Part shown: piece after piece, positions 3,831-19,406 of the stretch | Numbering within the stretch: position 1 is the first letter of the stretch | Layout: every line of letters starts with the position of its first letter | Assembly: GCA_000153385.1 (NCBI GenBank) | Contig: CH672374.1 | Coordinates: 1,986,544 to 2,050,543, forward strand | DNA: 64,000 bases | DNA from: Flavobacteria bacterium BBFL7 | Lineage (GTDB): Bacteria > Bacteroidota > Bacteroidia > Flavobacteriales > Flavobacteriaceae | Reading direction: 5' to 3' | Made by a program: the position numbers and the translations under genes | Notes under the pieces: model-generated | Seen by the model: only the letters and a program-made list of their open reading frames with translations | Told to the model about the DNA's origin: nothing | The model's database searches: none

Positions 3831-4147
3831 TGGAAAAACCAAATAAATCTTATATAGATAGTTTATGTCGTGGAGATAAGGCCTTTGAAGATAGGTTGTT
3901 AACTGTTATCAGGACAGAATTCCCATCAGAAAAAAAGGTGTATTATGATGCATTAGAAATTAAAGATTATAAAGAAATAGCTGAAGCTGTTCATAAATTA
4001 AAGCACAAAATAAGTATCTTAGGACTTGAGAAAGGATATGAACTAGCAGCAGAATATGAAAATAATATTCTTGATAAAGATTTCACACTTTCACAATCAT
4101 TTGAAGAGATCTTAGATAGTATGACTGAGTATCTTAAAACCATATAG
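3830..4147 (+). CDS. HPt (histidine phosphotransfer) domain protein
   Basis: This is a free-standing HPt domain of 105 residues. The segment AVHKLKHKISILG (residues 53-65) matches the family pattern AHxLKGxSxxxG, with His55 as the probable phosphate carrier; the usual Gly after LK is His here. The rest is predicted helical, as expected of the four-helix bundle. It overlaps the upstream kinase by one base and sits 10 bases before the LytTR regulator. HPt proteins normally receive phosphate from a receiver domain, but neither visible kinase carries one. It may therefore take phosphate back from the LytTR receiver, or work with a receiver encoded elsewhere. Confidence 0.82.
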   Translation: MEKPNKSYIDSLCRGDKAFEDRLLTVIRTEFPSEKKVYYDALEIKDYKEIAEAVHKLKHKISILGLEKGYELAAEYENNILDKDFTLSQSFEEILDSMTEYLKTI

Positions 4148-4157
4148 TAGCTAAAAA

Positions 4158-4865
4158 ATGAAGTGCATTATTATAGATGATGAAGCAACGGCTCGTCTAA
4201 TTATATCAAAGTACTGTAGTGATATGAAAGGTCTAAATGTATTAGAAGAGTTTTCTAATGCTATAGATGCAATGAAATATTTAAATCAACATACAGTTGA
4301 TTTAATATTCTTAGATATTCACATGCCAGGTTTTAATGGAATAGACTTTATACAAACCATTAAAAATCCTCCTAATGTTATTTTAACTACTTCAGATCCT
4401 AATTTTGCGATTGAAGCTTTTGAGTATGAGTGTATTGTAGACTATTTAATTAAGCCAATTAACGAGGAACGATTTATTAAAGCAATAAATAAAGCTTCTA
4501 ATAAAGTAAGCGTAGCGCAAAAAAAAGCAGACACTTCTAAAAAGGAGTCTACAGAAGATGTATTGTATGTCAATATAGATAGACGTTTAATTAAAATTGA
4601 TATGCCTAGTATCTACTTAGTAGAAGCTAAAGGAGATTATATTATGATTAAAACAGAAAGCAAAAACTATATAGTTCACTCTACTCTCAAAAAAATAGAA
4701 GAAAAATTACCCGACCACACTTTTCTTAAGGTACATCGTTCATATGTTATTAATATCAGTAAGATTATAGATATAGAAGATAACTGTGTATTAATTAAGA
4801 AAGATATTATACCTGTAAGTAGATCTAATCGACCTATTTTAATGAAAAGATTGAATTTATTATAG
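4158..4865 (+). CDS. LytTR-family response regulator
   Basis: The 235-residue protein has an N-terminal receiver domain (about 1-118) with the acidic pair Asp7-Asp8, phospho-acceptor Asp53 in FLDIHMPG, a TT pair near 77 and Lys99 in LIKP, so all active-site residues are present. A linker leads to a LytTR DNA-binding domain (about 135-235; LVEAKGDYIMI and FLKVHRSYVINI are typical). LytTR proteins bind two direct half-sites about two helical turns apart. Four such paired sites lie downstream, before 4991, 9738, 11391 and 18573, making this the obvious candidate for their regulator. It is the last gene of the signalling operon. Confidence 0.93.
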   Translation: MKCIIIDDEATARLIISKYCSDMKGLNVLEEFSNAIDAMKYLNQHTVDLIFLDIHMPGFNGIDFIQTIKNPPNVILTTSDPNFAIEAFEYECIVDYLIKPINEERFIKAINKASNKVSVAQKKADTSKKESTEDVLYVNIDRRLIKIDMPSIYLVEAKGDYIMIKTESKNYIVHSTLKKIEEKLPDHTFLKVHRSYVINISKIIDIEDNCVLIKKDIIPVSRSNRPILMKRLNLL

Positions 4866-4879
4866 CGAGGTAAAAAACA

Positions 4880-4966
4880 CTTAACTACCCATTAATACCA
4901 CTCATCTACACTTCTTTTGGATTCGTCGTATTAATTAAATATGACCTTAAATCTGCTTTAGTTTTG
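4880..4966 (+). promoter_or_regulatory. Putative LytTR operator and promoter of the DUF4114 gene
   Basis: Half-site cttaactacc at 4880-4889 and half-site ctcatctaca(ctt) at 4901-4913 are 21 bp apart. A perfect -7 element TAGTTTTG lies at 4959-4966, 58 bp after the start of the second half-site. No TTG occurs about 20 bp before the -7, which fits an activator-dependent promoter. The start codon of the downstream gene is 78 bp past the second half-site. Confidence 0.6.
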
Positions 4967-4990
4967 ACATGAATTTAAATAATTGTCAAG

Positions 4991-7429
4991 ATGAAAAAAT
5001 TACTACTTGCTACATTTTTACTTACTAATATAGTTCTCGGTCAGAGTTATCAATACTTGGGCTCATACGATTCAATGGGGACTCCTCAATATTTAGTAAA
5101 TCCTAGTGATGTAGTTGATACTGCTACGATGGATATGATTGGATATTCCTTGCCTGAAGGATATCCTGTTCCTGTTTATAATCCTCATTATATAACTTCT
5201 GGCTATGAGACAGATATCATTGTTGAAAGTCTAGCAGACGTATGGGTCACTTTTGTGAGTGAAGGAGCTGGCTATAAAAATGTTTTAGGATTCTACACTT
5301 ACGATATTTCAAATCCACCTACCACTAGACCTTCAGTGTCTGAAATCACTATAATCTTCCCTAATGTATCTGCGGTTAATAGTGGTGGTGGATTACAAAC
5401 TGGTGATAAAGTTAAAATAGGTACATTTCCTGCAGGAACAGGAATAGGTTGGGTCCTTTTGGCCAATGCATGGAACTCGTCAACAGCTACTGTAGGGTCT
5501 GCTCATTGGGATGTGTTTTCTAACCCTAATTTTAATCCAGAACCATTACTAGATTTACAGTACCATAATGTGTTGCTTCAAGATCCAGAGAATGAAAGAA
5601 TCATTCTTGGTTTTGAAGATATTAGAAGAGATTATACTTCGTGCGATAATGATTTTAATGATGCAGTATTCTATGTCACGGCAAACCCATATACATCACT
5701 AAAAACATCTAATTATGCTGATGTGAGTAAATCATCAACAGTAAGCTCTGGTAATACCGGCGGATTAGAAAGCAACGGTGATCTAGCTAGTCTGATTGCT
5801 AAGAGAAACTTTGAACGAACTAAAAGAAATTATGTTTCAACTATAGAAACTCAAGAAAAATTTAATCAACCATCAGTACGTTTAAAGTCTGGGAACAATA
5901 CAGCACAACTAGATACTTACTTACCATTAACAGGTATGTATGGAACAGAGACCGCATACATTTCAACGCCACAAGACCTAATTAATGTCACTAATGCAAC
6001 TGAAGTTTTTTCTGTTGATTATTACGAGCAAAACGATAGAATAGCCGCTGTTCTAGCAACAGCATCTACTGGATCTATATATGATCATTCAAAAGCTATT
6101 TGTGATAGACTCAATAGCTCTGTGCTAGAAGACGTAAGGTCTGTTACTGTAGGCGGTCATAAAATTATAAGCTCAAAACTGGTTAGAGCTTCGGGTGAGA
6201 TTGAGTATGCATTAGGGTTTTCTATCAAACTAGGTGCAAATCAAAATGAACTATTTAGTTTTTGGGAAATTGGTCAGTATCCACCAGGTGATTTTTACAA
6301 TTTTCAAATTTGGGGAAGTTCTTACTCTCAAGTTTTTGCATTGACTAATAATATTTTAGCAAATCTAAATCAGGCACAACCAGTTGTAAGCACGGCTGTT
6401 GCAAATAATATCCCTCCAGTATTTGTAAGTTCTGGCTATTATCAAGATGGTCAGCTACATTTACAATTAACAAATAAAACAGGAGCAACTAGTATAACAT
6501 TTAATGGTGATCTTGCCAGTACAGAGGTTTCAAGTAGGCAGTCTATAAGTCAATCTATAGGATTAAATGGTAATTTACATGAGACTGTGATTATTAATAC
6601 TGGGACATTATTTGATATAGGGTTTTCACTATCGATAGGTAATCAACAAAAAGATGCATTATATCTTGCAGACGGACCGTGGGGAATGGATTATCTAACG
6701 GATTATGCCACGGTGAATAATTTTGATGTTCAGAACGCACAGCCTACCTCAACAGGTAATACTCATATCATAGAACGTAATCCGTCTGTACAAGGAACTG
6801 TAAAAGGTAATTTAAATCTATTTAGACATTTGTTACCTGGAGAACAAACACTAGATATTTCTTCATTTACAGCGCTTCAATTTGATATTATAAATGATCA
6901 ACCTATCGAAATTATACTGGTTCCAGAGATATCGATCTCATGGAATGATCGTTTCAGGTACACCATACCAGCAAACACTTCAAAGACTACTTATGATATT
7001 GCGTTTGCTGATTTTTTAAATTCAAATGGAGCTTCATTTACACACTCAGATATTAAAACCATCGTCTTTTCAATAATTAGTGATTATACTAACACAATCT
7101 CATTTTCATTAGATTTAAGTGATGTGAGATTTGGTGACTATCAATCTACACTTTCTGTTGATGAGGTTGTTAACGATGTAGTAACCTTAAATAACGCGCC
7201 TAACCCATTTACAACTTCAACATCATTTCAATTACCTATAGAGAGTGCAGTAGTAGAAATTAGGGTTTATGACCTTTACGGACGTACTGTAGATCACAAA
7301 AGTATTAAAACAACAAATAATAGTAAGGAGTTTGAATATCACTCTCCAGACCTTCATACCGGTTTATATCACTTTAATATCGTTACAGATCAAGGTAGAA
7401 AATTTACAGGTAAGTTTTTAATTAATTAA
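4991..7429 (+). CDS. Secreted DUF4114 protein with T9SS sorting domain
   Basis: This 812-residue protein begins with a short signal peptide (MKKLLLATFL, cleavage near residue 18). Residues about 145-230 form a DUF4114 domain; its hallmark acidic segment GFEDIRRDYTSCDNDFNDAV (207-226) is a probable calcium site. The middle (about 290-720) has no domain I recognise and looks beta-rich. The last 80 residues are a type A T9SS sorting domain (NAPNPFTTSTSFQLP, then VYDLYGRTV and ending KFLIN), so the protein should cross the outer membrane and be attached to the cell surface or released. It follows the signalling operon and has one of the four LytTR-type sites. A role as an exopolysaccharide-matrix or adhesion protein is inferred from context. 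Confidence 0.85.
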   Translation: MKKLLLATFLLTNIVLGQSYQYLGSYDSMGTPQYLVNPSDVVDTATMDMIGYSLPEGYPVPVYNPHYITSGYETDIIVESLADVWVTFVSEGAGYKNVLGFYTYDISNPPTTRPSVSEITIIFPNVSAVNSGGGLQTGDKVKIGTFPAGTGIGWVLLANAWNSSTATVGSAHWDVFSNPNFNPEPLLDLQYHNVLLQDPENERIILGFEDIRRDYTSCDNDFNDAVFYVTANPYTSLKTSNYADVSKSSTVSSGNTGGLESNGDLASLIAKRNFERTKRNYVSTIETQEKFNQPSVRLKSGNNTAQLDTYLPLTGMYGTETAYISTPQDLINVTNATEVFSVDYYEQNDRIAAVLATASTGSIYDHSKAICDRLNSSVLEDVRSVTVGGHKIISSKLVRASGEIEYALGFSIKLGANQNELFSFWEIGQYPPGDFYNFQIWGSSYSQVFALTNNILANLNQAQPVVSTAVANNIPPVFVSSGYYQDGQLHLQLTNKTGATSITFNGDLASTEVSSRQSISQSIGLNGNLHETVIINTGTLFDIGFSLSIGNQQKDALYLADGPWGMDYLTDYATVNNFDVQNAQPTSTGNTHIIERNPSVQGTVKGNLNLFRHLLPGEQTLDISSFTALQFDIINDQPIEIILVPEISISWNDRFRYTIPANTSKTTYDIAFADFLNSNGASFTHSDIKTIVFSIISDYTNTISFSLDLSDVRFGDYQSTLSVDEVVNDVVTLNNAPNPFTTSTSFQLPIESAVVEIRVYDLYGRTVDHKSIKTTNNSKEFEYHSPDLHTGLYHFNIVTDQGRKFTGKFLIN

Positions 7430-7463
7430 AAAATATAGTCGAAAAGAGTAGGACGAATAGAGC

Positions 7464-7499
7464 TGTTCAAATATGCTTTCGCGAAAGCGTATTTGAACA
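7464..7499. terminator. Bidirectional hairpin containing the 14-bp palindrome
   Basis: An almost perfect 36-nt inverted repeat (one mismatch, which becomes a G-U pair in RNA) lies between the convergent genes ending at 7429 and 7510. Its centre, 7475-7488, is one copy of the palindrome GCTTTCGCGAAAGC; the flanks TGTTCAAATA and TATTTGAACA extend the stem. There is no strong T run, so it may be a terminator, an RNA-stabilising hairpin, or both. Confidence 0.6.
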
Positions 7500-7509
7500 A
7501 CCTATTTTA

Positions 7510-9615
7510 TTATTTATTTTTAATAGGGTTGAATAAAGGCTTATCAGACAATAGCCATTTAAATCTTAATCCAAGTTCTGTAAATGTAAATCCAGCAGCT
7601 GTAGTGGAAGCAATATTACTTTGTTGTCCATAAACATCTAGAGCTGTGCGATCTGAGAATTTATAACCTAATGAGGCCTGCAATCTATATGTCGATTGTC
7701 TACTGTTATCTTCAATAAATTGATAACCAGTTGCCGCACTTAAGTCATAATACCATTGATCCTTTTTAATGCTTTCTATACTACGATTGAGATTAAAGAA
7801 AATTTCTACAGCATTAAAACGACTAGGGCTGAAGTATACGGTTGGGACCTGGTTTTTAAAAGTGATGTATTGATAATTTAGTCCAGCTTTAAGTGAAGGT
7901 TTTTTTAATAGGTTGTAATACAGTGAGGTAAATAATAAATTTCTCGAGTTCCCATCATTCTGTGAGGTATAAAAATATTGAGTGAACCATCCCAGTTTAA
8001 AATTAGTACTCACATTATAATTTAAATAATAGTTGTTTTGTACTAATTGACGTTCTAATAAAGCTGTATTAAAACTCTCTACATTTCTTTTATAGCCTAT
8101 GTCGATTGATTGTAACTTAATCGTTTTAATCTGTAATGAAACATCTGAAATAAACTCTGTATAACTACTGTTGTCTGCGTTGATACTGTTGATACCTGCA
8201 ATTCCTTTAAGCTTTAAATTAGGTAAAAATTCATATGCAGCACCTAGTTGGAAAAGTTGTGTAGTAGCCTGAGATGAAAGTGGATTGTTGAATGTGTCTC
8301 GATAATTATAATTTGCTAAAAAGGCAAATTTTGTACTTGTAGGGACTGTAAGATTAACATCTAGGTTATAGGCCTCATTATCTCCGTTATCAAAACTATA
8401 ACTTGGTTTAACCTTAACCACTGGTGTGAATTGTTCATCTAGTTTTTTGATAAACTGTAAGGCATCTTTTTGGTCTTTAAAAATCTCTAAGGTCTTACTA
8501 GCAGATATATATGCAGCGAGATAATCTCCTGTCGCTTTTTGCGCATTTGATTTACCTAAATTACCATCAAATGAGGTGCTGTCAGAAGCCAAAATCAAAT
8601 TATAATCTTCTATACTTTTATTAAAATTACTTTTATAAATATTCAATGTAGCTCTTAAAGATAGTAGCCAGTTCTCTGGACCCGACTGTTCTATCTGATT
8701 GTCAATCATATGTTCAGCATCTTGATATTTATCATTCCATATGAGGGCTTGTATATGACGTTCTATAGTCTGTCTTTCAATATTTTCTAAAGTAGAAGGT
8801 AGTAAGGAAGACATGGCCTTGCTCGAATATTGTAATGCTTTTTTTTCTTTCCCTTTAAGATGTTGTACTAAAGAGATACCATTTAAGGAGATGATACTAT
8901 CTGTAGGAGTTCTATTTATTTTATGATAAGTGATTAAGGCGCTGTCAACCTGTGTTGCAATAAGATATGTATTAGCCAGGACTTGTAACGTCTCGGTATC
9001 ATATTCTAAAAATGTCAAATTATCTTTTAAAAGTTGAGCAGCTTGTTCATAAGATTGCTTTTGTACCAGTTGATTAGAATAACCTAGATGGATGTATTTT
9101 TTTGACGTCAGTGCGTTAGGATTACCAGGATCAATGACCAGTGCCTTGTTAATGTAATCTTGTGCTTGAGGATATTCCTTTAAATTTGATAAGGTATTTG
9201 CATAGCCTAAAACTGCAGGGAAACTTTGATCATTTTCATTTAAAAGCTTTTTATAATATGATTTTGCAGCAGTATATTTTTTATTCCAAAGTAAAGATTC
9301 TGCATAATTTAATTTGATTTCAAAATCTTCAGGATATTTATTTAAAAGCTCTTGAAATATAAGTGTTGCTTCATCTGGATTACCGCTTAATCCAGTTGCT
9401 CTTCCTAAACACAGTTGAGCAGTTTTATTATTAGGGTGCTCTTTTAAGATATCGGTAAAAAAAGTTTTGGCCTGTTTAAAATCCCCTTTTTCAAGTAATT
9501 GAAAACCTGGATTCATATTTTGACTATATCCTATGTGCATTACAAATAAGGCGATAATAGAGAAAACGCCTTTTTTGAGCGCTATTTGCAAATAGGGTTG
9601 AAAAGATTTCATCAT
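7510..9615 (-). CDS. TPR protein with outer-membrane beta-barrel (exopolysaccharide porin-like)
   Basis: The protein has 701 residues. After a signal peptide (hydrophobic stretch about 14-30, ending GYSQ), residues about 35-390 are tandem tetratricopeptide repeats. Residues about 400-701 are alternating beta strands rich in aromatic residues, and end in LGLRFKWLL as expected of an outer-membrane barrel of the YaiO type. A periplasmic TPR scaffold fused to a barrel is the design of the export porins PgaA, BcsC and PelB. It stands among glycosyltransferase and flippase genes and is divergent from the STAS-flippase pair, so export of the polysaccharide through this barrel is the likely role. Its start codon overlaps the first half-site of the LytTR element at 9608, so it may share that control. 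Confidence 0.78.
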   Translation of the reverse strand: MMKSFQPYLQIALKKGVFSIIALFVMHIGYSQNMNPGFQLLEKGDFKQAKTFFTDILKEHPNNKTAQLCLGRATGLSGNPDEATLIFQELLNKYPEDFEIKLNYAESLLWNKKYTAAKSYYKKLLNENDQSFPAVLGYANTLSNLKEYPQAQDYINKALVIDPGNPNALTSKKYIHLGYSNQLVQKQSYEQAAQLLKDNLTFLEYDTETLQVLANTYLIATQVDSALITYHKINRTPTDSIISLNGISLVQHLKGKEKKALQYSSKAMSSLLPSTLENIERQTIERHIQALIWNDKYQDAEHMIDNQIEQSGPENWLLSLRATLNIYKSNFNKSIEDYNLILASDSTSFDGNLGKSNAQKATGDYLAAYISASKTLEIFKDQKDALQFIKKLDEQFTPVVKVKPSYSFDNGDNEAYNLDVNLTVPTSTKFAFLANYNYRDTFNNPLSSQATTQLFQLGAAYEFLPNLKLKGIAGINSINADNSSYTEFISDVSLQIKTIKLQSIDIGYKRNVESFNTALLERQLVQNNYYLNYNVSTNFKLGWFTQYFYTSQNDGNSRNLLFTSLYYNLLKKPSLKAGLNYQYITFKNQVPTVYFSPSRFNAVEIFFNLNRSIESIKKDQWYYDLSAATGYQFIEDNSRQSTYRLQASLGYKFSDRTALDVYGQQSNIASTTAAGFTFTELGLRFKWLLSDKPLFNPIKNK

Positions 9616-9695
9616 TAGATATTATTCATTCGTCTACACTTAATCGTCACTAAACGAAATATACGGTTTTAACCCATAGATCAGTGACATATTTG
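9608..9695 (+). promoter_or_regulatory. Putative LytTR operator and promoter of the STAS-flippase genes
   Basis: Half-sites ttcatcatta (9608-9617, the weakest of the set) and ttcgtctaca(ctt) (9629-9641) are 21 bp apart. The -7 element CATATTTG is at 9688-9695, 59 bp from the second half-site. The region is divergent: on the minus strand a TATATTTC near 9655-9668 could serve the TPR-barrel gene, and the first half-site overlaps that gene's start codon. Confidence 0.55.
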
Positions 9696-9737
9696 CAATG
9701 TAATAATAAACAAATACTCATTTTTAAATATAGCATT

Positions 9738-10016
9738 ATGTCACTTACTATTAAAAGAACACAAGGAATTTATCAATTATCTGGAATACTAAATGCAACT
9801 ACCTCTAACTGCTTAGTCAACCACATCAATTTTCTTCTAGATGAAGAAGCAGAGGTAAATATCAATATTGATGGTCTAAAATTAATCGATCAAAATGGTG
9901 TTGCAGCTTTTATGACAATAATGTCATATTCTTTACGTCCAGATAAAAACATTTATATTTCCGGTAATGGATATAAGGATATCTATAACGAATATCGCTA
10001 TAGGTCAATAGCTTAA
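9738..10016 (+). CDS. STAS-domain protein lacking the phosphorylatable serine
   Basis: I choose the ATG at 9738 (protein begins MSLTIKRTQG, 92 residues) over an in-frame ATG at 9684. The likely -7 element lies at 9688-9695, downstream of the earlier ATG, and the shorter form matches the usual STAS length. The sequence shows the STAS pattern of alternating strands and helices. At the position of the regulatory serine in SpoIIAA-type anti-sigma antagonists (MDSSG) it has IDQNG (Asp51, Gln52), so it cannot be switched by phosphorylation there. It lies 20 bases before the flippase gene and is probably co-transcribed with it. It may bind a partner constitutively; the partner is unknown. Confidence 0.72.
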   Translation: MSLTIKRTQGIYQLSGILNATTSNCLVNHINFLLDEEAEVNINIDGLKLIDQNGVAAFMTIMSYSLRPDKNIYISGNGYKDIYNEYRYRSIA

Positions 10017-10036
10017 TCTATAATAAGAAAATAGTC

Positions 10037-11275
10037 ATGCAATTAATCACTTCATTAACTAGAAAAAAAATTTCGCCTGAACAGCTTTTTATGTTGAGCG
10101 TTCTGGTTGTTAATGGTGGTAATTATATTTATAATTTGGTCCTAGGTAGATGGTTGGGTCCAGCACAATTTGCAGATGCGGCTATATTAATTACCTTTTT
10201 ACTAGTTCTATCTTTTCTAGCGATGACATTTCAGTTAGTCACAGCAAAATATTCTGTCCTTCTTGAAAACTCGCAACTACCTTCTTTTTTAAAGAGAATT
10301 TTAAAATCCTCTCTGTTTGTAGGACTTATTGCAGGCCTAGCGATTATGTTACTGTCTGGTCAGCTACAGGATTTATTTCATACCACAAGTAAAAATATGT
10401 TCATCATATTTGGTATAGCTGTCCCATTTTATTTTTTAATGAGTGTGAATCGTGGTTTCCTGCAAGGCAAAAATGATTTTAAAGGCCTGGCTATTACATA
10501 TCAATCTGAAATGTTAGTCAGATTGGGACTTACATTATTATTACTTTATTTTTTAAAAATAGACCCAATTCTAATCGTGTCTATTGGAATTTTAGTTTCA
10601 CTACTATTCGGTTTATTCCCATTTAAAATGTCGTCATTGCTCCAGTTGAAATCAGCTACAATTGACACCGTTTTATCAAAACAAATTAAACGTTTTTTTT
10701 TAGTAACTCTTTTCTATGAATTAACGCAAATTATCATCAATAATAGTGATATACTATTAGTTAAACATTACTTTGAAGATACTGAGGCAGGTTTATATGC
10801 TTCTCTTGCTCTTATAGGAAGAGTCGTTTATTTTATGGCGTGGATGTTTGTCATGTTATTATTGCCCAAAGTAATTACGTTACAGAAAGATGGTAAAGAA
10901 ACACAGACATTACTATTCAAATATGTAGGTTATATATCACTATTATGCCTATTTATTATTGCTGGTACGGCGTTATTTCCAGAATTAGTGGTAGAGATCT
11001 TATTCGGTCAGGCTTATCTAGAAATAGCACCACTTTTATGGAAGTATGCTATCGCAACATCATTATTTGCTATTGCAAATATCTTTTCTTACTACTTCCT
11101 TTCTTTAGGTAAGTACAAGCCAGTAATTATATCTGGTATAATGGGCTTAGCTCAAATCTTCCTTATAATGTTTTATCATCAAGACCTTGAGCAAGTCGTA
11201 CTCGTTCAAATTATTGCAATGACCATTTTAATGGTAATGCAAATTGTATACTTTATGATTGGTAAAAACTCTTAA
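10037..11275 (+). CDS. MOP-superfamily flippase (Wzx/PelG-like)
   Basis: The 412-residue integral membrane protein has about 12 hydrophobic segments and the early motif LGRWLGPAQFADAAIL, typical of the oligosaccharide flippases of the multidrug/oligosaccharidyl-lipid/polysaccharide (MOP) superfamily. It should move a lipid-linked glycan or a growing polymer across the inner membrane. It follows the STAS gene and is followed by a GT4 glycosyltransferase with its own promoter. The substrate cannot be read from sequence. Confidence 0.85.
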   Translation: MQLITSLTRKKISPEQLFMLSVLVVNGGNYIYNLVLGRWLGPAQFADAAILITFLLVLSFLAMTFQLVTAKYSVLLENSQLPSFLKRILKSSLFVGLIAGLAIMLLSGQLQDLFHTTSKNMFIIFGIAVPFYFLMSVNRGFLQGKNDFKGLAITYQSEMLVRLGLTLLLLYFLKIDPILIVSIGILVSLLFGLFPFKMSSLLQLKSATIDTVLSKQIKRFFLVTLFYELTQIIINNSDILLVKHYFEDTEAGLYASLALIGRVVYFMAWMFVMLLLPKVITLQKDGKETQTLLFKYVGYISLLCLFIIAGTALFPELVVEILFGQAYLEIAPLLWKYAIATSLFAIANIFSYYFLSLGKYKPVIISGIMGLAQIFLIMFYHQDLEQVVLVQIIAMTILMVMQIVYFMIGKNS

Positions 11276-11280
11276 TACCA

Positions 11281-11367
11281 CTTATCTACAGATAAATGCA
11301 ACTCGTCTACACTTATAGTCAACCAATCTTATTATCTATAAAACACGGTTAATTATTACCAAATTTG
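11281..11367 (+). promoter_or_regulatory. Putative LytTR operator and promoter of the GT4 gene (clearest copy)
   Basis: Half-sites cttatctaca (11281-11290) and ctcgtctaca(ctt) (11302-11314) differ at only two of ten positions and are exactly 21 bp apart. The -7 element CAAATTTG is at 11360-11367, 58 bp from the second half-site, with no -33 TTG. The start codon is 77 bp after the second half-site. This copy shows the direct-repeat structure best. Confidence 0.65.
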
Positions 11368-11390
11368 TCCTGTAATTAAAAACAATAATC

Positions 11391-12602
11391 ATGAAATTAG
11401 CCATTGTAACAGCATATCCACCTAGTAAAGTAACTTTAAATGAGTATGCTTTTCACCTAGTTAAAAGCTTTAGATTAAAAGATGAGATTACAGAAATCGT
11501 TTTACTTACTGATAAAACAAGTGGCGATAAAGACTTAAGTTTTGAAGCTGATGGTTGTAAGATTACCGTTAAAGAATGCTGGTCTTTTAATAGCTATTGG
11601 AATATTAAAAATGTTACAGCAGCCATTAATGAAACACAACCAGATAACGTTCTGTTTAATCTTCAGTTCATGAAATTTGGAGATAAAAAAATAGCTGCAG
11701 CATTAGGTCTAATGCTACCTCTTATTTGTAAAATTAAAAAGATTCCAACCATAGTTTTACTTCATAACATTTTAGAAGAAGTTGATTTAGGTAGTGCAGG
11801 TTTTACAAATAATAAAGTGCTTACGGCCTTGTATGGCTTGATAGGAACGATACTTACTAAACTTATCTTACAAGCAGATATTGTGGCAGTAACAATGAAC
11901 AAATATGTGCAAATTCTAGAGAAAAAATATAACGCAAAAAATGTAATACTTATACCTCATGGCACTTTTGAAGTTGCAACAGAAGAGCCTTCTTATGCCA
12001 TTGCTCAAGGACCTTTACAAGTTATGACCTTTGGTAAATTCGGTACCTATAAAAAGGTTGAGTCTATGATTGATGCTGTAGAATTAGTTAGAGAAAGAAC
12101 AAATTTAGATATAGAAATAGTAATTGCAGGAACAGATAACCCTAACGTCCCTGGATATTTAGAAAACGTAAAAAAACAATATAATCATGTCGATCAGTTA
12201 AGGTTTACTGGCTATGTAGAAGAAGAAGAAGTACCAGTATTATTTAATGATAGTGCAGTAGTTGTATTTCCATATACATCTACAACAGGTAGTTCTGGTG
12301 TATTACATCAGGCTGGTAGTTATGGAAAGGCCGTTGTGATGCCAGATCTTGGAGACCTAGCTTTATTAACGCAAGATGAAGGATATAGAGGTGAGTTCTT
12401 TGAGCCCGAAAGTGTTGAAAGCCTTGCTTATTCTATAGAGGCTATATTGACAAACGAAGCGCATAGAATAGCTATCGCCAAAGCTAACTTTAAAGCAGCT
12501 ACATCTCACCCTATGAGTAGAATTACAGAAATGTACTTAACGGCTTTCAATCAAATTAAACAAGGTAAAAAAAGAGGTGTAATCTCTCTTAACGCTGGCT
12601 AG
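11391..12602 (+). CDS. Family 4 glycosyltransferase (GT-B fold)
   Basis: This 403-residue soluble protein has a Rossmann-like start (MKLAIVTAYPPSK) and a C-terminal half with VMTFGKFGTYKKVESMIDAV, VIAGTD and VVFPYTSTTGSSGVLHQAGS, the GT4 donor-binding region. The first Glu of the usual ExxxxxxxE motif is not present in the standard place, which may affect donor choice. It has its own LytTR-type promoter. Its 3' end overlaps that of the convergent hydrolase gene by 14 bp. It should add sugars to the polymer made by this locus. The combination GT4, MOP flippase and TPR-porin recalls PelF, PelG and PelB. Confidence 0.85.
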   Translation: MKLAIVTAYPPSKVTLNEYAFHLVKSFRLKDEITEIVLLTDKTSGDKDLSFEADGCKITVKECWSFNSYWNIKNVTAAINETQPDNVLFNLQFMKFGDKKIAAALGLMLPLICKIKKIPTIVLLHNILEEVDLGSAGFTNNKVLTALYGLIGTILTKLILQADIVAVTMNKYVQILEKKYNAKNVILIPHGTFEVATEEPSYAIAQGPLQVMTFGKFGTYKKVESMIDAVELVRERTNLDIEIVIAGTDNPNVPGYLENVKKQYNHVDQLRFTGYVEEEEVPVLFNDSAVVVFPYTSTTGSSGVLHQAGSYGKAVVMPDLGDLALLTQDEGYRGEFFEPESVESLAYSIEAILTNEAHRIAIAKANFKAATSHPMSRITEMYLTAFNQIKQGKKRGVISLNAG

Positions 12603-14106
12603 TAATATACTCAAACGAAGATTTTTTCTTTCCCCTGGAATCTAGAAACCCATAATATTTTTGTGGATTTCTACGCCATGGAAGTGTTCCAGTAACGCTT
12701 TCAGGTATGGATTCAAAGTCATAAAGAGTCCAAGACATAAATGAAAGTTTATTCTTTTTAAGAAGTTCTTGGGCTTCTTTGTGATACAACGCTTGATCAT
12801 CTTCATCAGATCCCATCAAATTCCAAACACCAGAGTACGAGCTCATCCCATACTCTGTTACAGCAATACTTTTATCTCCTGTAACTTTTCTAAGCTCTAC
12901 CACAGCGTTTTCAAACTCGACTAGAGAATCATAATAATGAAAGGTAATGAAGTCCACCTCTTCTATTAATGACTGGGCACTAGAAATGTTAGACCATCCT
13001 ATCGTGGTAGGATGATGATTATCGATTGATTTAACTCTATATAACATATGAATTAACCAAGATTCCACAGTTTGTTTTTTTCTGGAATCAAAATCGAGAT
13101 CAGGTTCATTTTTTAAATCATAACCTAAAAGGGCATCATGATTTTTAACAGCGTTAACAACACTAATAAGATGTTTTTGTGTCATAGTCCAATCACTGAC
13201 TGAATAATCTCCATAAAAATCAAATAATGTAATTAATACTTTTAAGTCCTCTTGTTGAGCTTGATCCAGTAGAAGTAATAATTTATCTATTTTTTCTTGA
13301 AGCACATACTCCTTACCAAAATCTTCATATCCTACAAATACTCTGACGCTATTCAATCCAGCATTTTTAATGATTTTAAAATCTGCAGCAATGGTGTCTT
13401 TATGAAATAAAGGACCAAAAGTATCCCAAGGTGAATTTTTAGGATAATAATTAATTCCCTTTAAGCTCATTTTTAGATCATTAGAAGTAGACTTCTGTAA
13501 TCCATCTTTAGTCGATTCTTTAATCATCTGTCTCACACGCCAGTACCCATCTTCTAGTAATAGAATAACTTTGTATGTATTTATCGTAGTGGATTTACCG
13601 ATAAACTTTTCATTCTTAAAAAGTTGGTGATATTCTAAAACATTATGATCTGTTAAGACGATTAATTGTCCATCTTCACTAAAGAATTCAATTTTAGGAT
13701 GATGCTCTAATGTGGTCATCTCTACGTTAATCTGTTGACTTAAGTTGTGTTTTATTAATTGAGTAACTTTTTTTGTGGCATTTTCAGTATAATAATCTTC
13801 AATACCAGTTAATGTGTTGTTTTTTAATGCTCTAGCTTTTACATACCATGCGTTTAAATAATCTTCTTCAACAGATTTTAATGTAGTGGCATCCACCTGT
13901 CGACCTTCAACATTAGTGGTATTCCATTTAATAATAGGAATGTAATAACGATCTTGTATTTGCTCTGTATGCAGCATTTTACTGCGATCTGCACCAGTAT
14001 TTAAATAGCTGTATAAACTACTTATCCCAAATGTGATCAGAGCGATTATTAATATATAAAATAAAATTAAGCCACTGCGCAGTATGTTCTTATTGGTATT
14101 ATTCAA
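12589..14106 (-). CDS. Membrane-anchored GH5-like glycoside hydrolase with NTF2-like domain
   Basis: The protein has 505 residues. A hydrophobic segment (11-35) anchors it in the membrane or acts as a signal. Residues about 78-200 look like an NTF2-like cone domain (ending DGYWRVRQMIKES). Residues about 215-505 are a TIM barrel of the cellulase-like clan GH-A: GINYYPKNSPWDTFGP, then LKNEPD with acid/base Glu334, FHYYD near 390 and VTEYGMSSY with nucleophile Glu418. Both catalytic glutamates are present. It overlaps the Ig-like gene upstream by 8 bases and closes the three-gene minus-strand operon. Synthesis loci often encode a periplasmic hydrolase that trims the polymer, as PelA and BcsZ do; that role is inferred. 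Confidence 0.82.
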   Translation of the reverse strand: MNNTNKNILRSGLILFYILIIALITFGISSLYSYLNTGADRSKMLHTEQIQDRYYIPIIKWNTTNVEGRQVDATTLKSVEEDYLNAWYVKARALKNNTLTGIEDYYTENATKKVTQLIKHNLSQQINVEMTTLEHHPKIEFFSEDGQLIVLTDHNVLEYHQLFKNEKFIGKSTTINTYKVILLLEDGYWRVRQMIKESTKDGLQKSTSNDLKMSLKGINYYPKNSPWDTFGPLFHKDTIAADFKIIKNAGLNSVRVFVGYEDFGKEYVLQEKIDKLLLLLDQAQQEDLKVLITLFDFYGDYSVSDWTMTQKHLISVVNAVKNHDALLGYDLKNEPDLDFDSRKKQTVESWLIHMLYRVKSIDNHHPTTIGWSNISSAQSLIEEVDFITFHYYDSLVEFENAVVELRKVTGDKSIAVTEYGMSSYSGVWNLMGSDEDDQALYHKEAQELLKKNKLSFMSWTLYDFESIPESVTGTLPWRRNPQKYYGFLDSRGKKKSSFEYITSQR

Positions 14107-15307
14107 AGCTTACTTTTTTAAATGTTTTGGTAATACCACCTGCCGTAATGTTAAGGTCATAATTTCCCTTAGGAATTAAATCTGGGTTGAGTTCAAACCT
14201 TACTTTTCCATTATAAGACTGTTTAAGATAAGTTTCTTCTATGGATTGTCCTACTATCTTCAGTTCAACGGTTACACCATCAGGAATGATTTGTCCCATA
14301 AAACTCTTTAAAGGTCCTACAATAATTGATCGGTTACCTTCTAAAAGTTGAATCTCATAATCATCAAAAACTTGTTGAAACTCTAAGTTGATAGTGTTGC
14401 TACTTGCCATACCTGTTACAGCAGCCGTCACTGACCAACTATCTGCCTTTTCTGGGTGAATCATGCTTGCTGTTGCGATTCCTTTGATCGTCGTTCCAGT
14501 AGTTTGTAATATCACGCCAGAACTAGTTGTGATGTAAAAAACGACCAATGTTCCATCACTAACCGTATTTCCATACGAGTCTTTAAGTATTGAGGTGGAA
14601 AAGGTTGCTAGTTGATTCCCATCTGCATAGGAATGATTAAGCTTTCGCGAAAGCGTAAAATCTACAGGCAATCCTGCTTTTACATCTACTATAAACTCTT
14701 TACTAAACTTGTTTCCTGAGTTTGCAGCGAGAAGAATAGGACCAATGGCAGTAGAACTGTAAATGTAATCGTGAGCAATTAAGTTTTTAACCTTAGAAAT
14801 ATTTTGAGATTCTAATATTCCCTTATTGTAATGAAATGATACGGCAGTACCTTCTTCTTGCACGTTATCATAGATGTCTAAAGGTATAGAGACTACCATA
14901 CTATAGTCTGTGTTTCCTGCTATAATACTAGGTGGACCTACATAGGTTTCTATCTCTACAATTTCAGAATTTGATTGTATATAAAAGTCGCCCTGTAATG
15001 CTGTGGTTAATAGCATCCACTTTACAGTACCTGAATTATGACTTATAAATGGTGGTAAGCGATAGGTAAGGATGTTGTTTTGAGTTTGAGGACTAATAAG
15101 TGTGCTACCCAGATTGTAGGTGATTAATAGTTCTGGAGCATTAGTTCCATCGCCTTTAAATCTTAAATCAATTCTTGCACCAGCAGTATACATTTGTTGA
15201 TGATCTACCGGTGTATAAATATTATTAGTAACAGTTTCATGTTGCATGAAACTGTTCGATAAAATCAATATTACAGAGATCAATAAAGCTATAGATTTTA
15301 AACTCAT
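14099..15307 (-). CDS. Secreted protein with bacterial Ig-like (Big_1/invasin-type) domains
   Basis: The protein has 402 residues, with an N-terminal signal segment (MSLKSIALLISVILILS). Residues about 225-315 (FSTSILKDSYGNTVSDGTLV, then a strand with GIATASM) fit the invasin-type Ig fold; an earlier unit about 130-200 is similar but weaker, and the end (about 340-402) is another beta sandwich. There is no T9SS sorting domain or lipobox, so it is probably periplasmic. Its start overlaps the stop of the large membrane protein by one base (TAATG), so the two are translationally coupled. It carries a copy of the 14-bp palindrome in frame. A structural or scaffolding role in the polysaccharide machinery is inferred. 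Confidence 0.72.
   Translation of the reverse strand: MSLKSIALLISVILILSNSFMQHETVTNNIYTPVDHQQMYTAGARIDLRFKGDGTNAPELLITYNLGSTLISPQTQNNILTYRLPPFISHNSGTVKWMLLTTALQGDFYIQSNSEIVEIETYVGPPSIIAGNTDYSMVVSIPLDIYDNVQEEGTAVSFHYNKGILESQNISKVKNLIAHDYIYSSTAIGPILLAANSGNKFSKEFIVDVKAGLPVDFTLSRKLNHSYADGNQLATFSTSILKDSYGNTVSDGTLVVFYITTSSGVILQTTGTTIKGIATASMIHPEKADSWSVTAAVTGMASSNTINLEFQQVFDDYEIQLLEGNRSIIVGPLKSFMGQIIPDGVTVELKIVGQSIEETYLKQSYNGKVRFELNPDLIPKGNYDLNITAGGITKTFKKVSFE
14641..14654. repeat. 14-bp palindrome copy, in the Ig-like gene
   Basis: A perfect GCTTTCGCGAAAGC inside the coding sequence. On the minus strand it is read as part of TLSRKL. Confidence 0.9.
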
Positions 15308-18300
15308 TATTTTGGGTTTCCTATATATGCGTTAGTTTCTAATTTGATGTATGGATACGTACTATTTTCTATTTTTTGCAAGGCATTTAAGGATGCCTTA
15401 GTATCTCGAGTTGGAATAATTTTATTGGCAACATCTTCATTAGGCAATCCATTTACATAGCAATTACTCATATCTGAACTTAGTAAATTAATCTGTGTAT
15501 CTGTTAATAGGTCAAATTCAAAATGTTGTTTGCGTTGCGGACGTACGGCATCTTTTATAAATGTGTAATCTACCCATACTAATTGTTTATCACTATCGTA
15601 GTATGAGATAATTAGTTGTGGTACCGTAGGCTCTTGCGTGCCTGTATTGAATAATTGTCCAGTTACTTTCTTTTCTTTAATATTGATGTTACTGATGGCA
15701 AGACCTTTATATAAGTCAGTGTTAGCGACGTTACCAGCTGCTTGAATATTAAACACAGCAGGTTTATTTTTAAAATCTACTGGTGTATATTGATCTGGAT
15801 TAAAGGATTTAGGAATCGAGTCATTTATACTAGTCCAAGCGATACCTTCAAAGTTAATTTTAAAGCTACTAATCTCTTTAGGCATTAATTTGTGTTTTAC
15901 CACAAACTTTGCATTATGATTTGCTAGTTCTTTATCTTCAATATCATATAACGATGCTTTAAGTACCACATCTGCCGGTACTGTATCGATGTTTTGCACC
16001 TCACCAATAACATAATAATGATCTTCACATTCAACTAGTTTTGCATTTAAAATCTCAAGTGATGGTTGTTTCAGTATATCCTCATGATATGTTTGCTCAG
16101 TACTGATACGTCTTCGTCCTTGATTAAAGAATACAGTTTTATTTTCAGTAAATAATTGATTAGGAGGCAAATCGGTTTCTACTTCTTCGGGCTCAACAAA
16201 CCATTTTCCATGGTGTTCAATAGCTGTGATGTAATCGGTTTTTTGGACTTTTTCAAGTGGTGTAATCCATTCTGTAAGAACTTTTAAGCTCACCGTTTTA
16301 TCTGTTCTTTCCAAAACAATAGTTTCAATGTTATCTAGTTTTGCATAAGAACTTAATAAACCATCAGTAACAGATATTTGTAACATGTATTGATCTAGAG
16401 GTAAATCTCGTTTAGGGTTGATATACCCATGTGCTTTCTCAAACTCTTTAAAGTCTATTGCGTCATAATAGGCTAGAACTACATTTTCGGGACTATGTTG
16501 CGTGTTATTTTCTATATAAAAGATGTAAAGTCCGTAGCATGAAATAATAAATAATAATAATGACCAAACGTGTAAGGTGTGTAGTAAATAACCTTTAAAA
16601 GGTGTGTATTGATCTGGTATTTTTAAATAGGCTGCAGTTGCTGTCTTTCTATATTTAAGCATCCTGGTTAGCATTAATTGAATGTTCAAGAAAAACGCAA
16701 CTAGAATAGTTAGGATAGGCATTATTCCCCAGAGGATTTTTTGCCATTGAGGAACGTCGACTAATGGTAAAATATTAGATAGTGGTGGAACATTCATTTT
16801 TTCCCATACCATAATACCATTTTCTAGTTGCTCTAATCGCTGCCATCCACAGAAATACAACATGGGATCATAAAACTTATCGTTTGAAAAAATATACTTA
16901 AGGTTATATTTTTCAGGAACGGTTAAGAATTGTTGCAGTGAACCTATACCTTCTACACCTTTAAATTTTGAATTTTCTAATCTTTCTATTGGTCTAGTGG
17001 TTAATTCTGGAAGCCTTCTAGCACTATGATAATTACCATCAACACTTAATGCCTTAGTTTGTGCTGCTAGCCATGCCATTTGATCTCCAAAACCAAGTGT
17101 TAAATATCTCCAGTGATCGTGCTGGTCCTGACTTAAAAAGTTAACAATAGGAAGCATCTTAATCTTTGCAGGCTGTGATGGTCTAAAATACCCTAAAGTC
17201 ATGGTAAAGATAATCATCACAATAAAAAGTCCTGCTAAGATTGCCCCAGCGAGTCTATGATATACTGCTCCTAACTTAAGCTGTATAAGAGCCTTAATAT
17301 CACCTTGAATAAACCTAAAAGCAAATTCACCTAGCATAGGTAAGGACATAATTGACGCCCATAAAGTAAATCGGTCTAAGGTTAAAATATTAAAAGCATT
17401 TTCTCCCAAAAACATTTTAGGAATAGGTGTGGTGCCGCCTGTCCCCAATACCGTTAATATGGTAATAGAAAGTCCAAAGAACAGGTATCTTTTACTGTAA
17501 TACCTATAAAAAATATAAGGCAGTATAATTAGAAGTATTCCCCATGGAATCAAGAAAAACACAAGTCCAGAAGAAGTAACTTCTAAAAAATTGTCTCTAG
17601 AGCCATGTGGTATGGGAACTTGGGTTATAGGGTTGTTCTTTGTGTTGATCCAATAGGGTAGAATACATCCTATTATTATGACTAGTGAAGACATTCCAAA
17701 TCCGACGATGCGTTTAAATAACTTTAAGAAGCTTTTTAAAAAAATATTAAATGTAATTTCTTTTGTTGAGCTTACCTGTTCTCTAGCATGATCCATAATA
17801 ACCATACCTATTAATGGAAAAATAAAGAAAACCATCCCGAATATAGGTGTCACGTGATGCGAGGTCACAGTAACAGATATGAGAGAAAGTGATGTGAAGT
17901 AATATCTATAATTCCCGGTTTTGAGCCATAGGTATATCTCTGGTAAAGAATGCATTAAAATAGAGATCCCTATAATACTGGGTAGTTGTCCAAAGATATG
18001 AAGTGTCTCAAGGAAAGAAGAAGAAAATACAGCTAGAAGAGCAGCATACCCAGCAGCCTTTCTGCTAGATGTTATAAGTAAGGAAAATCTATATACACCT
18101 GTAATAAATAGAATGATAGCAATAATAGCAACTGTAAACATCCCAAACTTTAAACCACCTATATAGCTTAACAAGGCGATACACTGATGTACAAGTGGTG
18201 GATAACTCATTACCGTAAAACCGGTGTACCATTTATAATTCCATGGTTCAAACCAGCTACTGGCATAATGTTCTGCAAAGAATAGATGTATTAAAGCATC

Positions 18301-18402
18301 ATATGTAGTTTCTAGAGTAAAAAATATAGAACTACCATGAAAAGCAATCCCTATAAATAGAGCTGCTATTAAAAGCTTATTGGTGGTTTTTTTCAACTTC
18401 AA
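15307..18402 (-). CDS. Large GT-C-like membrane protein with NTF2-like and FxLYD-like domains
   Basis: The protein has 1031 residues. About 12 membrane segments lie in the first 410 residues, with further ones near 545-570 and 610-635. The first loop, after TTYDALIHLFFAEHY (Asp35, His39), carries WNYKWYTGF and SYPPLVH. This resembles GT-C glycosyltransferases and the PF10131 membrane family, whose first periplasmic loop holds the catalytic acid. Residues about 640-745 resemble an NTF2-like domain, and two FxLYD-like beta domains follow (about 795-865 and 920-985). A GT-C enzyme would use a lipid-linked sugar donor, which the DPM1-like GT2 encoded divergently at 18573 could supply. It heads the minus-strand operon with the Ig-like and hydrolase genes. 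The enzymatic role is inferred. Confidence 0.7.
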   Translation of the reverse strand: MKLKKTTNKLLIAALFIGIAFHGSSIFFTLETTYDALIHLFFAEHYASSWFEPWNYKWYTGFTVMSYPPLVHQCIALLSYIGGLKFGMFTVAIIAIILFITGVYRFSLLITSSRKAAGYAALLAVFSSSFLETLHIFGQLPSIIGISILMHSLPEIYLWLKTGNYRYYFTSLSLISVTVTSHHVTPIFGMVFFIFPLIGMVIMDHAREQVSSTKEITFNIFLKSFLKLFKRIVGFGMSSLVIIIGCILPYWINTKNNPITQVPIPHGSRDNFLEVTSSGLVFFLIPWGILLIILPYIFYRYYSKRYLFFGLSITILTVLGTGGTTPIPKMFLGENAFNILTLDRFTLWASIMSLPMLGEFAFRFIQGDIKALIQLKLGAVYHRLAGAILAGLFIVMIIFTMTLGYFRPSQPAKIKMLPIVNFLSQDQHDHWRYLTLGFGDQMAWLAAQTKALSVDGNYHSARRLPELTTRPIERLENSKFKGVEGIGSLQQFLTVPEKYNLKYIFSNDKFYDPMLYFCGWQRLEQLENGIMVWEKMNVPPLSNILPLVDVPQWQKILWGIMPILTILVAFFLNIQLMLTRMLKYRKTATAAYLKIPDQYTPFKGYLLHTLHVWSLLLFIISCYGLYIFYIENNTQHSPENVVLAYYDAIDFKEFEKAHGYINPKRDLPLDQYMLQISVTDGLLSSYAKLDNIETIVLERTDKTVSLKVLTEWITPLEKVQKTDYITAIEHHGKWFVEPEEVETDLPPNQLFTENKTVFFNQGRRRISTEQTYHEDILKQPSLEILNAKLVECEDHYYVIGEVQNIDTVPADVVLKASLYDIEDKELANHNAKFVVKHKLMPKEISSFKINFEGIAWTSINDSIPKSFNPDQYTPVDFKNKPAVFNIQAAGNVANTDLYKGLAISNINIKEKKVTGQLFNTGTQEPTVPQLIISYYDSDKQLVWVDYTFIKDAVRPQRKQHFEFDLLTDTQINLLSSDMSNCYVNGLPNEDVANKIIPTRDTKASLNALQKIENSTYPYIKLETNAYIGNPK

Positions 18403-18460
18403 GGTCTATCAATTAATGATGTGATAAAGATATGACAACCGCAGCATCCGTTCACTGGCA

Positions 18461-18548
18461 TTGAACTATAGTAAATTACTATTCGTCTACACTTAATTCG
18501 CGCCCAGCGAAAATCGCCATTTTAAGGCCTCTTCTACGCCTAATTTTG
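18461..18548 (+). promoter_or_regulatory. Putative LytTR operator and promoter of the GT2 gene
   Basis: Half-sites ttgaactata (18461-18470) and ttcgtctaca(ctt) (18482-18494) are 21 bp apart, and a perfect -7 element TAATTTTG lies at 18541-18548, 59 bp from the second half-site. The intergenic region is divergent, so the element could also affect the large operon that starts at 18402. Confidence 0.6.
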
Positions 18549-18572: not shown

Positions 18573-19406
18573 ATGAAAACTGGAATTATCATCCCTTGCT
18601 ACAACGAAGAAAAAAGAATAGACACAGCTGCATTTAATGCATTTATTCAATCGCATGAAAACTATCATTTATGTTTTGTAAATGATGGAAGTAAAGATAA
18701 CACTCTAGATGTATTAAATAAGATGCAAAGAGAAACTCCTAATAGAGTAAGTATCGTAGATGTGAAAAAGAATGCAGGAAAAGCTGCTGCTGTAAGATCT
18801 GGAGCTAGATATTTATTTAATCGAGAAGATATTGATTACATAGGTTTTATTGATGCAGATTTATCTACCGACTTTAAAGACTTTAAAAAGTTGGTAGATA
18901 CTTTGCATAATAATGATGAGCTAACAATGGTATATGGTTCTAGAGGTAAAGGTGAAGGACAGATAGAGCGTAATGTATTGAGAAAACTATTTTCTCAGAT
19001 AGTTAAATTATTCATCTTTATGATTTTAGGATTACCTATTGAAGATACTCAATGTGGAGCAAAAGTCTTTAAAAGAGATATCATTCCACTAGCTTATGAT
19101 AAGCAGTTTTTAACGAGATGGTTATTTGACGTAGAGATATTTTTAAGAATGAAGAAACACTTTGGTAGAAAAGCTATTATGAATAAAATGTATGAGCAAC
19201 CATTAGAGCGTTGGGTACACATGGATGACTCAAAACTAGGATTTAAAGATGCAGTACAAATTCCATTAATGTTAATGAGTATCTGGTACTCTTACAATTT
19301 GACAGCTCAATTTGCTGCAACAGCGCCACAATTTCAACTAGCAACTAATGATGGACTTGAAGTTTATACAGGAAATGTAAGTTGGGAAGGTCGTATGGCA
19401 GCATAA
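18573..19406 (+). CDS. Family 2 glycosyltransferase (dolichyl-phosphate-mannose-synthase-like)
   Basis: The 277-residue GT-A protein begins at once with IIIPCYNEEKRI; VNDGSKDNT (37-45) and the metal-binding DAD motif (94-96) follow. KNAGKAAAVRSG (66-77) and EDTQCGAKVF are typical of DPM1/GtrB-type enzymes, which load a sugar onto polyprenyl phosphate. There are no clear C-terminal membrane helices, only one weakly hydrophobic stretch near 145-155. It carries the fourth LytTR-type promoter. It probably makes the lipid-linked donor used by the GT-C-like protein. The 3' end abuts the convergent SCO gene. Confidence 0.87.
   Translation: MKTGIIIPCYNEEKRIDTAAFNAFIQSHENYHLCFVNDGSKDNTLDVLNKMQRETPNRVSIVDVKKNAGKAAAVRSGARYLFNREDIDYIGFIDADLSTDFKDFKKLVDTLHNNDELTMVYGSRGKGEGQIERNVLRKLFSQIVKLFIFMILGLPIEDTQCGAKVFKRDIIPLAYDKQFLTRWLFDVEIFLRMKKHFGRKAIMNKMYEQPLERWVHMDDSKLGFKDAVQIPLMLMSIWYSYNLTAQFAATAPQFQLATNDGLEVYTGNVSWEGRMAA

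Follow-up and report, generated by a model that had tools for sequence, protein, structure and literature searches.

The window analysed here is a stretch of 64,000 nucleotides from Flavobacteria bacterium BBFL7, a member of the Flavobacteriaceae (GenBank assembly GCA_000153385.1, contig CH672374.1, positions 1,986,544 to 2,050,543 of the forward strand). Its beginning holds the end of an operon of signal transduction genes, the last of which encodes a LytTR response regulator, and this operon is followed by an exopolysaccharide-like locus. An earlier note on this DNA had proposed that four promoters of the locus share a paired operator, with half-sites 21 bp apart, and form a regulon of that regulator. 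Here we describe the array of direct repeats in these promoters, its occurrence before the regulator's own operon, which also encodes an H-NOX gas sensor, and its conservation in relatives, and we argue that it is likely to be the operator of the regulator.

Promoter architecture in the window

The window contains the half-site YTCRTCTACACTT as an exact match at four places on the + strand (4901, 9629, 11302 and 18482) and at none on the - strand, so that both the four positions and the lack of a further copy were correctly given before. With up to two mismatches, 16 matches are found against 6.4 expected, a number reached by none of 100 shuffles. A related half-site lies exactly 21 bp, or about two helical turns, before each of the four, as had been quoted, although these first half-sites vary among the promoters of this genome; the paired direct-repeat arrangement taken as a trait of LytTR operators is therefore present. 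The distances from the second half-site to the -7 octamer, 58 bp (TAGTTTTG), 59 bp (CATATTTG), 58 bp (CAAATTTG) and 59 bp (TAATTTTG), are likewise confirmed. The flavobacterial -7 box has been described as TAnnTTTG at positions -12 to -5 (PMC9723704), a form that the note had used in its proposed search pattern; two of the four boxes match it in full, and TTTG ends all four. In the 12-bp -33 zone no TTG is found in any of the four, as claimed, nor in the fifth promoter described below. The operator had been drawn with two half-sites: the pair stands, but a weaker third half-site lies 21 bp further on, in this genome a fair match at 4922 and otherwise weak, but clear in relatives. The putative operators, -7 boxes and target genes are as follows, with E values from the model of relatives' sites (R1) described below.

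4880..4934, + strand: operator 1, half-sites at 4880, 4901 and 4922 (third fairly good), E 4.8e-4
4959..4966, + strand: -7 box TAGTTTTG
4991..7429, + strand: target 1, secreted DUF4114 protein with Por_Secre_tail (type IX secretion system-type tail; Pfam)
9608..9662, + strand: operator 2, half-sites at 9608, 9629 and 9650, E 1.1e-11
9688..9695, + strand: -7 box CATATTTG
9738..10016, + strand: target 2a, STAS protein (Pfam), start taken at ATG 9738
10037..11275, + strand: target 2b, polysaccharide flippase (PF13440)
11281..11335, + strand: operator 3, half-sites at 11281, 11302 and 11323 (third weak), E 3.2e-7
11360..11367, + strand: -7 box CAAATTTG
11391..12602, + strand: target 3, group-1 glycosyltransferase, GT1 (PF13692, PF00534)
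18461..18515, + strand: operator 4, half-sites at 18461, 18482 and 18503 (third weak), E 1.8e-8
18541..18548, + strand: -7 box TAATTTTG
18573..19406, + strand: target 4, family-2 glycosyltransferase, GT2 (PF00535)

The statement that all four sites precede exopolysaccharide-like genes is borne out for the STAS/flippase, GT1 and GT2 genes, but the gene behind 4901 encodes the DUF4114 secreted protein and no exopolysaccharide enzyme. The ATG at 9738 is the more likely STAS start, because the GTG of the longest reading frame (9684) would precede the -7 box at 9688.

The whole genome (3,103,424 bases) holds five exact matches of YTCRTCTACACTT, four of them the window sites; the fifth (C2:1490454) was rejected as an operator, being without a half-site at -21 and without TTTG at 58-59 bp. 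A loose pair pattern with up to three mismatches was non-specific (230+192 = 422 matches versus 393+390 in the reversed control) and was dropped.

The H-NOX/LytTR operon and its promoter

The proposed regulon of four promoters keeps its four members and gains a fifth from outside the window. A one-mismatch copy of the half-site at C2:1985140, 1,404 bp upstream of the window, belongs to a promoter of the same design, with TTCGTCGACACTT at L031:7141, TCCGTCGACAGAT 21 bp on, and the -7-like CTAATTTG 58 bp after the second half-site. This promoter heads a tightly packed operon encoding a REC-only protein, H-NOX, a PAS kinase, a FIST protein, a second kinase, an Hpt protein and the LytTR regulator, whose gene would therefore be autoregulated. 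The part of the operon inside the window is:

1..1641, + strand: 3' part of the PAS histidine kinase gene (Pfam PAS, HisKA, HATPase_c)
1645..2778, + strand: FIST-domain protein, NosP-like (Pfam FIST, FIST_C)
2778..3830, + strand: second histidine kinase (HisKA, HATPase_c)
3830..4147, + strand: Hpt phosphotransfer protein (PF01627, 28.1 bits, cut-off 24.6)
4158..4865, + strand: LytTR response regulator, proposed operator binder (PF00072, 71 bits; PF04397, 68.5 bits)

The PAS kinase has 659 residues and starts 339 bp before the window (L031:8206), after the REC and H-NOX genes. The FIST protein misses the NCBIfam NosP equivalog cut-off (56.4 versus 450 bits) and has no match in the PDB up to E 1; FIST domains alone are claimed for it. 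The H-NOX protein scores 139.9 bits with HNOB (PF07700, cut-off 25.5) and is identical to PDB 6bde at 143 of 178 residues. It carries IHIEV and YKSSR, corresponding to the proximal histidine motif and the YxSxR motif that we take to be the heme contacts of H-NOX.

A protein search with the LytTR regulator gave a longer list, of which the best 80 loci, in Flavobacteriaceae as far as titles tell, were analysed. An H-NOX gene lies beside the LytTR gene in 76 of them, and two of the four without it (L124 and L128) are cut by contig ends. The [IV]HxEV motif is kept in 74 and YxSxR in 67 of these 76 H-NOX proteins; the other nine (L066, L077, L082, L083, L084, L098, L102, L132 and L138, six of them titled Winogradskyella) have YKSD or YKSE plus K instead, and their heme binding may differ. 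The LytTR gene at 4158, correctly placed and named in the earlier note, encodes the sole DNA-binding domain that Pfam finds in the operon. Its FLKVHRS meets the FhRhHRS-type DNA-contact motif defined for LytTR response regulators in PMC4227749, with K for R, and the pattern F.[KR].HRS is present in 79 of the 80 relatives.

Conservation of the spacing and the array in relatives

A profile from the ten half-sites of this genome was used to score pairs, at spacings of 17-26 bp, in the stretches upstream of relatives' genes. Before the operon's first gene, the REC-only gene (RR1, n=79), the best pair scores average 27.9 at 21 bp, versus 2.8-10.1 at 17-20 and 22-26 bp. Upstreams of GT1 (n=40, 15.8) and STAS (n=30, 15.1) likewise peak at 21 bp, those of the flippase (n=44, 0.3) and DUF4114 (n=11, 5.3) genes peak there only slightly, and GT2 upstreams (n=11) score near zero; the controls (HNOX, HK2, Hpt, LytTR and TPR) stay below -3 at 21 bp. 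A half-site score of at least 12 is found before the operon in 70 of 79 relatives versus 2 of 80 LytTR-upstream controls. The half-sites are thus conserved beside the locus in relatives.

Since the profile came from the genome under study, the upstream stretches were also compared in a profile-free way. TTCGTCGA then ranks first among the 8-mers upstream of RR1, occurring in 56 of 79 stretches versus 0.1 expected, with overlapping words also enriched. Before GT1 the first place goes to the -7 box CAAATTTG (23/40, within 200 bp), then CCATTCGT and CATTCGTC (19/40), and before STAS CATTCATC (22/30). The HNOX and LytTR control stretches, being coding, share other 8-mers as widely, so that it is the word together with its place that counts. 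Pairs of TCRTCKA before RR1 are mostly 21 bp apart (16 pairs, every other distance occurring at most once); this is also the most frequent distance before STAS (three pairs), and one of the only two pairs before GT1 has it.

When the 136 stretches selected on their first two half-sites were aligned on the middle half-site, the information fell into three blocks 21 bp apart and the -7 box, with little between the array and the -7 box. Neither the third block nor the -7 box had been selected on. The core of the third half-site, C[GT]AA, stands exactly at the +21 register in 102 of the 136 promoters, against 0-6 at eleven neighbouring registers, and in 101 the TTT of the -7 box lies at a distance of 62-64 bp from the middle one. 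At RR1 both the first and the second half-site are strong; in the promoters of STAS, flippase and GT1 the second is the strongest.

Genome-wide ranking of sites

R1, a sequence-only model, was built from 128 stretches: eight of the 136 selected, from Nonlabens L062 and L063, were left out, as were the 79 of 215 under the thresholds, and four poorly aligned rows (L083, L122, L129 and L130) were kept. In the R1 ranking of the whole genome the first five places are taken by the four window sites and the promoter of the LytTR operon (E 1.1e-11 to 4.8e-4), and the regulon reading is supported in that the strong matches are not spread over unrelated genes. The sixth match (E 0.0016; G000:C1:684611-684676, L219:8612-8677, minus strand) precedes the gene of a secreted-type protein of at least 2871 residues (DUF11, TSP3 repeats), divergent from prfC. 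Of 22 loci examined for such a prfC-divergent secreted protein gene, two (G000 and G016) show the motif at E < 0.01, and this large protein is tentatively a further target. In another genus, G184 (L278) has a strong site in the same gene order before the gene of a lectin/cadherin-domain protein. The seventh match (C2:1174624, E 0.21), intragenic and near another LytTR gene, was treated as noise.

R1 was also applied to 56 of 61 GT1 places obtained from family genomes by protein search, leaving out the GT1 of this genome, three at contig ends (G127, G091 and G144:C56) and a weaker second copy in G181. At E <= 1e-3 a match precedes GT1 in 37 of the 56, and in 34 of the 52 outside the model's loci.

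Co-occurrence of the motif and the regulator

Among 23 members of the genus, the motif (E <= 1e-3), H-NOX and GT1 are present in the same 16 genomes and absent from the same seven, one of which (G015) has a single weak motif match (0.0045). The LytTR ortholog (E < 1e-90) is found in 15 of the 16 positive members, the exception, G012, being 77% complete with a piece of the LytTR gene at a contig end; all seven members without the motif carry non-orthologous LytTR proteins. The same sample included 16 genomes of other genera. Motif, H-NOX, GT1 and LytTR are all present in one of them (G023), two from other families (G029 and G036) have H-NOX without this LytTR and without the motif, and one from another genus (G028) has a weak motif match and neither gene. 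In G025, from another family, ATTCATCTAAAGAA and ATTCATCTAAAAAC stand 21 bp apart before a different gene (L216:4095-4169), a pair that may serve a related LytTR regulator of that family as its operator.

In 199 genomes of the family, with up to 14 LytTR candidates scored per genome, motif and LytTR ortholog are both present in 77, the motif only in 5, LytTR only in 4 and neither in 113, so that the motif tracks the ortholog in 77 of the 86 genomes having either. The exception G081 (motif only) is technical, its operon running off a contig end; the remaining ones, motif-only G058, G073, G098 and G115 and the four LytTR-only genomes, stand as counted. G189, a candidate case of GT1 with neither LytTR nor motif, is not a counter-example, because the search had missed its LytTR operon: the region shows the operon (LytTR 66% identical), with a motif below the threshold.

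The motif is kept in 22 of the 25 genomes with LytTR and no GT1 match, in part because it sits at the operon itself. It is also found before distant exopolysaccharide genes in two genomes of one contig each: LytTR and GT1 lie at 20 kb and 2.986 Mb of 3.91 Mb in G002, and at 0.818 and 3.106 Mb of 4.04 Mb in G121. No GT1 match was obtained in G067 and G210; there the motif precedes other operons, encoding a phosphoribosyltransferase-domain protein and glycosyltransferases, and in G210 the distance to the LytTR gene exceeds 1 Mb.

Proposed mechanism and alternatives

We consider it likely that the sites are operators of the LytTR regulator at 4158-4865, which as the output of a phosphorelay would control its own operon and the exopolysaccharide genes. 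The observed anatomy, fifth promoter, conservation, spacing and co-occurrence give good support to this protein as the putative binder. Signals from the H-NOX gas sensor and the FIST protein would pass to the two histidine kinases and then, probably in this order, to the REC protein, Hpt and LytTR. Phosphorylated LytTR would bind direct ATTCRTCKACACTT-like half-sites, which should lie on one face of the helix because their spacing is exactly 21 bp. The half-sites, starting 79, 58 and (the weaker one) 37 bp before the -7 octamer, would be centred near -85, -64 and -43 if the octamer occupies -12 to -5. The last of them would then abut the absent -33 element, for which the regulator may stand in as an activator; activation is favoured since the -33 box is absent and the array ends just above -33. 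The regulator is predicted to act on its own operon, on the genes for exopolysaccharide, on that of the secreted DUF4114 protein and perhaps on that of the large secreted protein elsewhere. Because H-NOX and a FIST protein are encoded in the operon, nitric oxide is probably the input, and by analogy with Vibrio fischeri we lean towards a sign in which H-NOX bound to nitric oxide inhibits its kinase and lowers exopolysaccharide transcription. It is moderately probable that this is a gas-sensing module widespread in Flavobacteriaceae, in which H-NOX, often with FIST, would act through a phosphorelay on a LytTR activator of its own operon and of the species' exopolysaccharide operon, via a three-half-site operator replacing the -33 element; the regulator would stay while the polysaccharide locus changes, as in G067 and G210.

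Several points weigh against this interpretation. The R1 ranking is partly circular, because the relatives' stretches were chosen with a profile from the genome being ranked, and its informative part is the gap between the five promoters and the remaining genome. The third half-site does not rise above background in this genome, reaching 31 of 65 matches, where other offsets have a mean of 20.8 (standard deviation 4.6) and at most 32. Only 136 of the 215 upstream stretches pass the score thresholds on the first two half-sites (RR1 61/79, GT1 32/40, STAS 28/30, flippase 10/44, DUF4114 4/11, GT2 1/11), the low flippase and GT2 numbers including flippases that follow STAS in one operon and GT2 matches that are probably not orthologs. 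At E <= 1e-3, 19 of the 56 GT1 upstreams are without an R1 match. In G230 (one contig) the distant GT1 has no R1 match. For the sixth site, G016 (L289, weak) is the only member of the genus with a counterpart at that position. G025 has H-NOX and a LytTR protein 54% identical, with only weak matches (E 0.0045) and no GT1. The family survey has its nine exceptions (five motif only, four LytTR only), and shared ancestry inflates its counts. Finally, the genome encodes eight LytTR proteins, another of which could read the sites.

The regulator might instead act on the same operator as a repressor, or in both ways, as CoxC does in binding three direct repeats two turns apart over the -35 element (PMC11347149); the third half-site here, ending just above -33, would suit such a role. 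We regard this as unlikely, given that the -33 TTG is absent from all five promoters, each of which looks weak without help, and that the middle half-site near -64 resembles the AgrA proximal repeat near -60 (PMC4227749). Slightly less likely still is that another DNA-binding protein, be it another of the eight LytTR proteins or an unrelated factor, reads the sites and that the gene at 4158 is a mere neighbour. A repeat spacing generic for LytTR would allow this, but the half-site precedes this regulator's operon far more often than the controls, the motif co-occurs with this very ortholog, and the seven motif-negative members of the genus still hold LytTR proteins of other kinds. Promoters of one locus can also be copied, and repeats kept by descent from duplicated promoters, without regulatory meaning, would profit from the same shared ancestry that inflates all counts; this is highly improbable, as the information is concentrated in the half-sites and the -7 box and low between the array and the -7 box, the first half-sites are unlike among promoters of one genome, and the motif also precedes the other polysaccharide operons of G067 and G210.

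Relation to known systems

The components of the proposed LytTR pathway are known; their combination looks new, as do the operator and its distribution. RcoM is a one-component regulator whose sensor domain is PAS. Like the system proposed here, the carbon monoxide regulators RcoM1 and CoxC combine a LytTR domain and a gas input with three direct repeats spaced by about two helical turns, the third of which is clear here in relatives' promoters, but their half-site is TTCNNGCA or TTNNNGCN, spaced by 18-21 bp for CoxC, against another half-site and strictly 21 bp here, and CoxC is a one-component regulator with its own MHYT sensor domain, in place of a separate H-NOX phosphorelay (PMC11347149).

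The LytTR protein at 4158 reaches 122 bits with the NCBIfam BtsR model, below the cut-off of 246. We know of no gas sensor in the AgrA, YpdB and BtsR relays. These resemble the present system in having a REC-LytTR protein and a direct repeat pair, the proximal repeat of AgrA lying near -60 (PMC4227749) and the repeat of YpdB being GGCATTTCAT (PMC4847170). They differ from it in having two sites, not three, and another half-site sequence.

The output regulator of the Vibrio fischeri syp genes is not known to be a LytTR protein. The V. fischeri pathway from H-NOX/HahK through SypF to syp also has an H-NOX-controlled kinase that is thought to feed an Hpt domain, together with exopolysaccharide genes, and its H-NOX inhibits the exopolysaccharide-promoting kinase pathway in a nitric oxide-dependent manner; unlike here, the Hpt domain is within SypF, and the phylum and exopolysaccharide genes are different (PMC8738867). 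According to the same source, Shewanella oneidensis H-NOX/HnoC likewise includes a transcription factor with a feedback loop on its regulon, but HnoC is a repressor, whereas the sole DNA-binding output in the present operon is LytTR. A flavobacterial H-NOX has been solved from Kordia algicida (PDB 6bdd and 6bde, the species of 6bdd being given in PMC7356049); that paper is a simulation study of the protein, and its available passages mention no operator or regulon.

In the literature searched, where subscription journals were mostly absent, no title or abstract joined H-NOX with a LytTR regulator in Bacteroidota, nor was such a sensor-to-polysaccharide pathway found in this phylum; both terms occur together in just two papers there, PMC6769237, whose available LytTR passage concerns AgrA nitrosylation, and PMC8396549, which deals with Geobacter. 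If the proposed pathway is true, transcription of surface polysaccharide genes in Bacteroidota would be tied directly to a heme gas sensor, and flavobacteria, which are common on marine algae and particles, may couple slime (surface-sugar) production directly to a gas signal, probably nitric oxide. A consensus of the LytTR operator would also become available for the family, and with it a route to the regulator's targets in any sequenced member.

Neighbouring genes in the window

7510..9615, - strand: TPR protein, possibly an export porin, divergent (TPR by Pfam; PgaA model 38.4 bits versus cut-off 366.65)
12589..18402, - strand: glycosyl-hydrolase-like, Big_1/invasin-like and 1031-residue protein genes of the same locus (Pfam; 1031-residue protein without match)

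For the TPR gene, a control in the pair scoring, relatives show no operator on the gene's strand. Its listed start codon is overlapped by the first half-site of operator 2 (9608-9620), which may restrict the TPR gene's own promoter. For the 1031-residue protein (15307-18402), Pfam and NCBIfam give no match at E 0.001; L117, L125 and L135 are among the relatives in which its gene likewise adjoins the locus.

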